In this document: piece after piece, positions 7,471-8,927 of the stretch | Layout: every line of letters starts with the position of its first letter | How positions within the stretch are numbered: position 1 is the first letter of the stretch | NCBI RefSeq assembly: GCF_000255295.1 | Contig: NC_017030.1 | Coordinates: 7,166,328-7,230,327 of the forward strand | From: Corallococcus coralloides DSM 2259 | Lineage (GTDB): Bacteria; Myxococcota; Myxococcia; Myxococcales; Myxococcaceae | Direction of reading: 5' to 3' | DNA length: 64,000 bases | Position numbers and translations under genes: made by a program | Notes under the pieces: model-generated | Seen by the model: only the letters and a program-made list of their open reading frames with translations | Database searches by the model: none | Told to the model about the DNA's origin: nothing

Positions 7471-7529
7471 AGCACCCCGTCCCGGAGCACGGCTTGACTT
7501 TCCGTGCATCCGGGAGCACTTCTTGTCCC

Positions 7530-7613
7530 GTGAACCTCGTCATCCACACCACCGCGACCACGACCACCACCGCTTCGGCGGGCGTGGGTGCGGTGCGCGT
7601 GTCGGTGTCCTGA
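7530..7613 (+). CDS. Threonine-rich leader peptide of the ThrRS paralog
   Basis: A 27-codon reading frame with a GTG start and a GGGAG ribosome-binding site at 7512-7516. It contains seven Thr codons within nine positions (HTTATTTTTA) and ends at TGA 7611-7613. A TTGACT box at 7494 could be part of its promoter, but no good -10 is seen. Composition, size and position, directly upstream of a threonyl-tRNA synthetase-like gene, match attenuation leader peptides such as thrL and pheM. The gene is too short for ordinary ORF calling. A His-rich frame overlaps it (TTG at 7523), but that frame continues far into the synthetase gene. Confidence 0.6.
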   Translation: MNLVIHTTATTTTTASAGVGAVRVSVS

Positions 7614-7694
7614 CGAGCGCACGGTTTCCCGCCCCGCCGAAGTCCGGCCGGGGCGACCGTGCAACCTCACACGCCCCGTGTCCGGCCCCGGCTG
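7574..7694 (+). promoter_or_regulatory. Transcription attenuator: four mutually exclusive RNA segments
   Basis: Region 1 (7574-7582, TTCGGCGGG) lies directly after the Thr codons and is perfectly complementary over 9 bases to region 2 (7633-7641). Region 2 can instead pair with region 3: CGCCCCG 7630-7636 with CGGGGCG 7649-7655, plus outer CGGT 7622-7625 with ACCG 7656-7659. Region 3 (7645-7654) also pairs over 10 bases, one of them a G-T, with region 4 (7685-7694). Stalling at Thr codons would cover region 1 and favour 2:3; free translation would allow 3:4. Region 4 is followed by only a weak T-rich tract (CTTCAT), so termination may be Rho-assisted. Confidence 0.55.
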
Positions 7695-7724
7695 CTTCAT
7701 CCCGACCGACACACGGAGACGACA

Positions 7725-8927
7725 ATGCTCGACGAACACGACCACCGCGCGCTGGGCCAGCGCCTGGACCTCTTCCACCTGCAGGAGGAGGCCCCGGGCA
7801 TGGTGTTCTGGCACCCTCGCGGATTGATGCTGTACCGGCTGCTGGAGGACCACGTCCGCCAGCGCATGCGCGAAGAGGGCTACCGCGAAGTCCGTACGCC
7901 GCAGCTGTGCTCCCAGCCGCTCTGGGAGCAGAGCGGCCACTGGGAGAACTTCCGCCAGAACATGTTCTGCATGCCGGAGGGCGACCGGCACCTGGCGCTC
8001 AAGCCGGTGAGCTGCCCGGGCCACATCCAGCTCGTGCAGCGCATGGCGCCCAGCCACCGCGACCTGCCCCTGCGCCTGGGGGAGTTCGGGCTGGTGCACC
8101 GCAGCGAGCCCAGCGGCGCGCTGCACGGGCTGTTCCGCCTGCGCCAGTTCACGCAGGACGATGGCCACATCTTCTGCGCGGCGGAGCAGGTGGAGGCGGA
8201 GGTGGTTCGCTTCGTGCGCTCGCTCAAGGCGTTCTACGCGGGCTTCGGCTTCGACGACGTGCAGGTGGCCTTCTCCAACCGTCCGGCGATGCGTGCCGGC
8301 AATGACGCGCTGTGGGACCAGGCGGAGGCGTGGCTCCAGTCCGCGGCGAAGCAGGCGGGCCTCCAGTACGAGGACCAGCCCGGCGAGGGCGCCTTCTACG
8401 GGCCCAAGCTGGAGTTCGTGCTGAAGGACCGGCTGGGCCGTGCGTGGCAGTGCGGCACGATCCAGCTGGACCTGGTGTTGCCGGAGCGCTTCGACCTGCA
8501 CTACGTCGGCGCGTCCGGAGAGCGCCTGCGCCCGGTGATGCTTCACCGCGCGCTGTTCGGCAGCCTGGAGCGCTTCATCGGCGTGCTGCTGGAGCACCAT
8601 GGCGGGGCGCTACCGGCGTGGCTCGCGCCCGAGCAGGTGGTGGTGGCCTCCGTGGGAGCGGGGGCCGCCGCGTACGCGGAAAGCCTGGCGGCGCGGCTGC
8701 GGCTGGCCGGCTGCCGCGCGCGGGCGGACGTGCGGGACGAGTCCCTGTCGAAGAAGGTCCTGGGCTCGCACGAGGACGGCGTGCCGTTCCTCGCGGTGGT
8801 GGGTGGCCGCGAGGTGGAGTCGAAGGGCGTCCGCCTGCGGCAGCGCGATGGTTCTCAGCGCGACCTGCCCTGGGATGACGCCGTGGCGTGGCTGTCCGCT
8901 GCGTGCCAGCCGGCCGTGGCGGGCTGA
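7725..8927 (+). CDS. Threonyl-tRNA synthetase paralog lacking TGS and editing domains
   Basis: Encodes 400 residues against about 640 for full-length ThrRS. The class II catalytic core (about 1-295) and the anticodon-binding domain (about 300-395) are present. The N-terminal TGS and the editing (N2) domains are absent, and the protein starts cleanly at the core. The three catalytic zinc ligands are kept: C97 (KPVSCPGH), H125 (LVHRSEPSG) and H274 (VMLHRALFGS). It should therefore charge tRNA-Thr but cannot clear Ser-tRNA-Thr in cis. The ATG at 7725 has CGGAGA six bases upstream. It could be a stress-induced back-up enzyme or a resistance copy (ThrRS is the target of borrelidin and obafluorin). 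Its leader suggests control by charged tRNA-Thr. Confidence 0.85.
   Translation: MLDEHDHRALGQRLDLFHLQEEAPGMVFWHPRGLMLYRLLEDHVRQRMREEGYREVRTPQLCSQPLWEQSGHWENFRQNMFCMPEGDRHLALKPVSCPGHIQLVQRMAPSHRDLPLRLGEFGLVHRSEPSGALHGLFRLRQFTQDDGHIFCAAEQVEAEVVRFVRSLKAFYAGFGFDDVQVAFSNRPAMRAGNDALWDQAEAWLQSAAKQAGLQYEDQPGEGAFYGPKLEFVLKDRLGRAWQCGTIQLDLVLPERFDLHYVGASGERLRPVMLHRALFGSLERFIGVLLEHHGGALPAWLAPEQVVVASVGAGAAAYAESLAARLRLAGCRARADVRDESLSKKVLGSHEDGVPFLAVVGGREVESKGVRLRQRDGSQRDLPWDDAVAWLSAACQPAVAG

Follow-up and report, generated by a model that had tools for sequence, protein, structure and literature searches.

The window analysed here is a stretch of 64,000 nucleotides from Corallococcus coralloides DSM 2259. 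On its forward strand it carries a gene for a threonyl-tRNA synthetase paralog of 400 aa (ThrRS2, 7725..8927), preceded by a short threonine-rich open reading frame and by a series of RNA segments that can pair in alternative ways. The protein matched TIGR00418 with 456 bits against a cut-off of 384. Pfam annotation found only the class II core (PF00587) and the HGTP anticodon-binding domain (PF03129), with neither a TGS nor an editing domain, which bears out the initial annotation of the gene as an editing-less ThrRS paralog. The E. coli ThrRS zinc ligands and active-site residues that were checked are retained in the window protein, and the residues equivalent to the zinc ligands (Cys97, His148 and His274) are present in 68 of 68 ThrRS2 proteins. 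ThrRS2 was found in 66 of the 96 genomes of the family (matches with E ≤1.6e-156), and among the matches listed the window protein was 98% identical to ThrRS2 of Corallococcus carmarthensis (L004).

The same genome (10.08 Mb, single contig) also encodes a full-length thrS (L002, open frame of 668 aa), whose product is 45% identical to ThrRS2, compared with 48-54% identity between ThrRS2 and proteobacterial full-length ThrRS among the matches listed. Since ThrRS2 is nearer to the proteobacterial enzymes than to the full-length enzyme of its own genome, the comparison suggests acquisition by transfer, followed by loss of the N-terminal domains. In E. coli ThrRS, replacement of Gly463 by Ser or Ala gives resistance to obafluorin and borrelidin (PMC11252418). 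The equivalent residue is Gly in the window protein and in 66 of 68 ThrRS2 proteins, so that a role as a resistance paralog of the ObaO type is unsupported. It is Ala in L131 and L134, from two genomes of genus g3, and by analogy these two enzymes may be naturally less sensitive to both compounds. In addition, ARAGORN placed a tRNA-Val gene (anticodon GAC) just 5' of full-length thrS at 13 of 13 loci (L002, L150-L158 and L160-L162); as the two genes adjoin on the same strand, they may share a transcript or be co-regulated.

The leader open reading frame occupies 7530..7613 on the forward strand and comprises 27 codons from a GTG at 7530 to a TGA at 7611-7613, translating as VNLVIHTTATTTTTASAGVGAVRVSVS. 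Its 7 Thr codons fall within 8 consecutive codons, and its stop lies 111 nt before the ThrRS2 ATG at 7725; the initial annotation had recognised this 27-codon leader correctly and had placed it 112 bases from the start codon. A stretch of 7 Thr in 9 codons occurs once in the 64 kb, both strands considered, and dinucleotide shuffling of 7471-7724 produced one in 6 of 20000 shuffled sequences. A Thr-rich frame (6-8 Thr in 9 codons) ending 100-130 nt before ThrRS2 was present at 70 of 70 loci, that is, the 66 loci of the family together with L003, L004, L005 (Byssovorax) and L018 (a Polyangiaceae MAG); L003 and L004 duplicate L113 and L084, leaving 68 distinct loci. Thr-rich leaders also precede the ThrRS2 genes of genomes G156, G113 and G112. 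The 68 leaders contain 533 Thr codons (6-10 each; ACC 328, ACG 131, ACT 74) and start with GTG in 56 cases and ATG in 12. Before full-length myxobacterial thrS, in contrast, the 500 nt scanned held no more than 3-4 Thr per 9 codons (13 of 13 genes), and before the full-length thrS genes among the 80 matches listed the maximum was 5 in 9 (76 of 76); neither set, 89 loci together, has a comparable run. The remaining 4 of these 80 matches (L003, L004, L005 and L018) are editing-less ThrRS with 6-8 Thr in 9 codons. The Thr-rich leader thus appears to be conserved specifically with ThrRS2, and this is a stronger argument than the odds in shuffled sequence.

A conserved small frame before a synthetase gene might also act independently of tRNA charging, through autoregulation by binding of ThrRS to the RNA, through drug-induced arrest or through translational coupling. 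E. coli ThrRS autoregulates, as named in PMC2965389, and ThrRS inhibitors are natural products, so that an inhibitor-induced synthetase is plausible. The conserved trait, however, is a run of Thr codons written with the synonyms ACC, ACG and ACT rather than a fixed peptide, the Gly463 determinant of obafluorin and borrelidin action is the same in nearly all ThrRS2 proteins, and the RNA pairings described below fit the positioning of a ribosome; we consider a charging-independent frame quite improbable.

Upstream of the leader lies a promoter-like element (7494..7522, forward strand) consisting of TTGACT, 17 nt and CACTTC, with the leader start codon 7 nt after it. Among 64 distinct loci, the distance from TTGAC to the leader start codon was 36 nt in 59, 35 nt in 3 and 37 nt in 2. 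The count leaves aside L141, L147, L005 and L018; in the first three of these, TTGAC was seen by eye some bases farther away. The hexamer 17 nt after TTGACN starts with CA in 64 of 64 loci; its last base is T in 46 of 64, a set that does not include the CACTTC of the window. A sigma-70 scan did not report this element at threshold, and its -10 is poor. A transcription start 6-8 nt past the -10 hexamer would coincide with the leader start codon; the transcript is therefore probably leaderless, with at most a couple of nucleotides ahead of the GTG. From the position of TTGAC upstream of 7530, too, a start close to the GTG is more likely than one beyond 7613.

Eight segments of the transcript, all on the forward strand, can form seven alternative helices (S:A, A:B, C:D, B:E, D:E, E:F and F:G). 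Segment S (7564..7574) consists of the last Thr codons and pairs with segment A (7574..7587), of which 7577-7587 face S and 7574-7582 face segment B (7631..7641). The core of A:B is an exact 9-base complement between TTCGGCGGG (7574-7582) and CCCGCCGAA (7633-7641). Inside A:B, segment C (7593..7605) pairs with segment D (7610..7625) around the leader stop codon, D using 7610-7622 for C and 7619-7625 for the 3' part of segment E. The latter segment (7644..7662; CCGGCCGGGGC, then GACCGTGC) pairs either with B and D, in which case D:E lies outside B:E, or with segment F (7672..7685; CGCCCCGTGTCCGG). Segment F is an anti-Shine-Dalgarno strand, which can pair alternatively with segment G (7706..7718; CCGACACACGGAG), where the ThrRS2 Shine-Dalgarno (SD) sequence GGAG occupies 7715-7718. 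In L103, whose genus handle is shared with Myxococcus qinghaiensis, the identical string AACCGTGCG occurs both in segment C and in the 3' part of E, so that the two compete for D with the same sequence. The initial annotation had described four segments: its perfect complement of segments 1 and 2 is the A:B core, and its pairings 2:3 and 3:4 exist as B:E and E:F. Absent from it were the pairing of the Thr codons with A, the C:D helix nested in A:B and the pairing of F with the SD sequence. An Rfam scan (E up to 5) gave two miRNA matches far below their gathering scores and nothing else, including no T-box.

All seven helices had favourable duplex energies in 13 of 13 sequence groups, with B mis-placed in 15 sequences; for S:A the group means ranged from -10.3 to -17.0 kcal/mol. 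On alignment A1 (56 sequences, 55 distinct), the helices of the OFF state (S:A, D:E, B:E and F:G) were paired in 94.6% of cells and those of the ON state in 93.7%, E:F reaching 100% in the 55 distinct sequences. A slide of the partner strand by 1-3 columns reduced pairing to 35-50% in both sets. The OFF set had 33 cells with a double change, where shuffles gave 11.9 and none of 500 reached 33; counted by pairs, there was no excess, neither in pairs with a double change (4 vs 3.6, 297 of 500) nor in further pair types (18 vs 17.8, 321 of 500). Specifically, the F:G pair adjoining the SD sequence (columns 166-199) was U-A in 29, A-U in 18, U-G in 2 and unpaired in 6 (n=55), and a D:E pair (columns 104-136) was U-A in 32, C-G in 8, unpaired in 13 and gapped in 2 (n=55). 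Covariation in the ON helices was weak, with 1 double-change cell and 164 of 500 shuffles as high. So little variation is to be expected where each base serves two helices, yet it is not independent proof. A comparison of orthologs of the kind proposed in the initial annotation thus yielded a conserved Thr run, conserved pairings and covariation in the OFF helices, but little in the ON helices; the lack of conserved Thr codons or pairings that would have refuted that annotation was not seen.

RNAalifold on A1 preferred a hybrid structure in which A:F stands beside B:E and D:E, with a covariation term of only -0.39. The mean duplex energy was -15.0 kcal/mol for A:F against -19.7 kcal/mol for A:B. 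Though the weaker helix on average, A:F is a possible alternative to A:B and would likewise free the SD sequence.

On this evidence we propose that the element works by ribosome-stalling attenuation, sensing charged tRNA-Thr and thereby controlling the translation of ThrRS2, a reading to which we assign a probability of roughly 0.7. Translation of the leader would begin at a GTG that forms the 5' end of the transcript or lies no more than a couple of nucleotides from it. When Thr-tRNA is ample, the ribosome would reach the stop codon and cover C:D, S:A would re-form behind it, B and D would pair with E, and F would pair with the SD sequence, so that ThrRS2 is off. When Thr-tRNA is scarce, the ribosome would stall on the Thr codons and block or out-compete S:A; A would then pair with B, with C:D inside, and the freed E would capture F, leaving the SD sequence without a partner and allowing ThrRS2 to be made. 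The editing-less ThrRS2 might thereby serve as an emergency synthetase during threonine limitation or whenever the housekeeping ThrRS fails or is inhibited. We infer all three of leaderless initiation, stalling and a translational, as opposed to transcriptional, output.

The switch was followed in folding models of 67 sequences (L018 excluded), with the ribosome edge set 13 nt beyond the first base of the A-site codon and A:B scored as formed at a probability of at least 0.5 in a transcript ending just 3' of B. With the ribosome at Thr1, A:B formed in 65 of 67 sequences, at Thr2 to Thr5 in 67 of 67 and at Thr6 in 59 of 67. At later codons it formed in 49 of 59 (Thr7), 19 of 33 (Thr8) and 1 of 7 (Thr9), and the mean probability of A:B was 0.57 at Thr8 and 0.12 at Thr9, a late stall masking A in some sequences. 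When the ribosome was placed on the stop codon, the RNA behind it re-formed S:A in 64 of 67. Once F was transcribed, E:F formed in 67 of 67 when B and D were locked and in 0 of 67 when they were free. In the OFF-state model, B:E was present in 67 of 67 and F:G in 64 of 67, failing in L146, L147 and L005. All five switch conditions, including the absence of A:B without a ribosome, held in 42 of 67 native sequences vs 3 of 402 dinucleotide shuffles, counts that are not independent events because the helices were picked by eye beforehand and the sequences are related. The commonest failing condition was that of the ribosome-free RNA, which is not uniformly OFF and formed A:B in 24 of 67 sequences, the window included.

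These results also bear on the view that the pairings are merely the chance complementarity of GC-rich sequence, with no regulatory role. Such sequence pairs readily, and chimeric pairings were almost as stable as native ones: native duplexes were 0.4-2.1 kcal/mol better than between-group chimeras, with no gain for B:E, B being mis-placed in 15 sequences. Conservation contradicts this view, however. The element recurs in 13 sequence groups, its promoter spacing is held at 35-37 nt, Thr codons stand before every ThrRS2 scanned with no like run before full-length thrS, and the switch test separated native from shuffled sequences; we give chance hardly any credence.

The predicted effect on the SD sequence itself is small. 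The GGAG was unpaired at 0.14 in the ON state vs 0.10 in the OFF state. In equilibrium folds the mean accessibility was 0.14-0.18 with a Thr stall, 0.10 in free RNA and 0.04 with the ribosome at the stop codon, these three means including L018, an artefact row in which the SD sequence is mis-located. In the ON model at equilibrium, F:G came back in 21 of 67 sequences, while 46 of 67 retained E:F; persistence of the ON state would therefore have to depend on kinetics or on the 30S subunit.

This weak predicted opening leaves room for another output, and transcription attenuation has to be weighed here. Under it, the same leader and the same S:A, A:B and B:E switch would operate, but transcription would end at the B/D:E hairpin or in the untranslated RNA that follows it, with or without Rho, and F:G would be secondary. 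This would be the classical leader-peptide logic, the B:E hairpin is very stable and nearly invariant, and short T-runs (TTTT) occur some bases 3' of F in a subset of orthologs such as L098 and L126. On the other hand, a scan of 7614-7725, between the leader stop and the ATG, found no terminator-like site and no intrinsic terminator with a GC stem and U-run as in a classical transcription attenuator; the initial annotation had noted a weak T-run and read it as a sign that the output could be Rho-dependent. A T-run directly 3' of E was absent in the 28 orthologs inspected. Moreover, the pairing of the F strand with the SD sequence is conserved with compensatory change, which a terminator would not need. 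Rho-dependent termination before ThrRS2 is possible, but we regard transcription attenuation as unlikely. As the last helix covers the SD sequence with compensatory change and no terminator-like site was found, we favour translational control, with the SD sequence as its endpoint.

The wiring first suggested for this locus was that a stall masks the segment just after the Thr codons, with B:E as antiterminator and E:F as terminator. Its named pairings exist, and in some sequences a ribosome halted at the end of the Thr run does cover A. At most Thr codons, though, the modelled footprint leaves A free (Thr2-5, 67 of 67), the window has no terminator-like T-run after E:F, and with B:E formed the SD sequence is paired, so that ThrRS2 would drop in threonine starvation; we judge this scheme very improbable. 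Its first segment is A, the partner of the Thr codons, and so takes the place of segment 2 in a classical attenuator. The modelled relay ends on the SD sequence, so that the output is likely translational; in that wiring the E:F hairpin is part of the ON state rather than a terminator. The likeness to a his/trp/thr-type attenuator therefore stands for the Thr leader and the mutually exclusive pairings but not for the wiring or the terminator, and the earlier interpretation was right in kind; its wiring was wrong, and so, probably, was its output.

The distribution of the RNA element follows that of ThrRS2. Covariance model R1, trained on 27 sequences of which 26 came from the 195 Myxococcota genomes searched, found the element in 67 of these 195 (E up to 0.01, strict filters): 65 of the 66 ThrRS2-bearing genomes of the family, plus G156 and G112. 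It gave no match in the 30 family genomes without ThrRS2 and missed G081 and G113, though both have a visible Thr leader. The ThrRS2 of G112, below the threshold of the protein search, was located via the RNA element alone; it is 54% identical to the query, and its leader has eight consecutive Thr codons. R1 matched one place per genome, as counted for this element only; in G014 and G015 a second weak match lay on the opposite strand at the same place. Leaderless short-ORF attenuators can occupy several loci per genome under common control, as a ribulon.

In the his, trp, thr and pheST attenuators of proteobacteria, a leader peptide carries the regulatory codons and the segments pair as 1:2, 2:3 and 3:4. 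The ThrRS2 leader resembles them in its regulatory codons and in these three pairings, which correspond here to S:A, A:B and B:E, but differs in that no intrinsic terminator was found and in that the added steps E:F and F:G end on the SD sequence. It shows the features of a leader-peptide attenuator, a run of cognate codons and conserved, mutually exclusive helices set in silico by ribosome position, and that of a translation attenuator, an SD sequence sequestered in the uninduced structure of the OFF model. Published examples of synthetase genes governed by a leader peptide are pheST, trpS and leuS (PMC1262725) and the hisS paralogs of bacilli (PMC2965389); the initial annotation was thus right to name pheST but too narrow, since trpS and leuS in Streptomyces and the bacillar hisS paralogs belong beside it. 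The trpS, leuS and hisS leaders share with the ThrRS2 leader an amino-acid-specific frame before a synthetase, and those of hisS likewise precede paralogs; in the consulted text of these sources they are described as classical or were found via terminators, and none is threonine-specific.

Other systems are similar in output. The erm translation attenuators have drug-sensing leaders on which stalling relieves sequestration of the SD sequence. T-boxes that sequester the SD sequence are described for actinobacterial ileS (PMC1262725). In both, as proposed here, a stall or the sensing of tRNA frees the SD sequence via alternative helices; unlike the ThrRS2 leader, erm leaders sense drugs, and T-boxes bind tRNA without a leader peptide. 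Mycobacterial polycysteine leaderless short ORFs reportedly act as attenuators (Canestrari et al. 2020, Mol. Microbiol. 114:93), and these leaderless attenuators appear by analogy to be the closest known system. Like the ThrRS2 leader, they are short ORFs with many codons for one amino acid and precede a gene for its metabolism; the ThrRS2 leader differs in its threonine codons, its occurrence in Myxococcota, its synthetase target and its multi-helix relay, and its own leaderless start is a prediction. Cys-rich upstream ORFs of mycobacteria are described in PMC4633059, and translation attenuation, defined as SD occlusion relieved by stalling, is illustrated with cysteine genes in PMC13236596. 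Within the open-licence literature we found no prior report of the ThrRS2 leader element, of a threonine synthetase leader or of a myxobacterial case.

A physiological parallel is offered by Anabaena, which has two ThrRS: T2 is impaired in editing and is made when zinc shortage lifts Zur repression, and the constitutive T1 edits in trans (PMC4787780). The myxobacterial ThrRS2 resembles T2 in being an additional, editing-deficient synthetase that accompanies a housekeeping enzyme; the Anabaena T2, unlike it, is under Zur and zinc control, and the consulted text of that source mentions no leader peptide. More tentatively, at somewhat less than even odds, we suggest an architecture particular to Myxococcota, in which a leaderless Thr ORF triggers, upon stalling, a strand exchange over 110 nt (S:A to A:B, B/D:E to E:F, F:G to an open SD sequence) and deploys an error-prone ThrRS2 only when Thr-tRNA fails, speed being bought with Ser-for-Thr errors that the housekeeping ThrRS may edit in trans.

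If the proposed reading is true, charging-dependent attenuation would extend to threonine, to a ThrRS paralog and to a phylum new to it, with a conserved relay that ends on the SD sequence. It would also give a testable answer to the question of when a ThrRS without proofreading is put to use, namely only when charged tRNA-Thr is scarce. Furthermore, soil predators may encounter antibiotics aimed at ThrRS, and in them the element would provide a natural readout of ThrRS inhibition.
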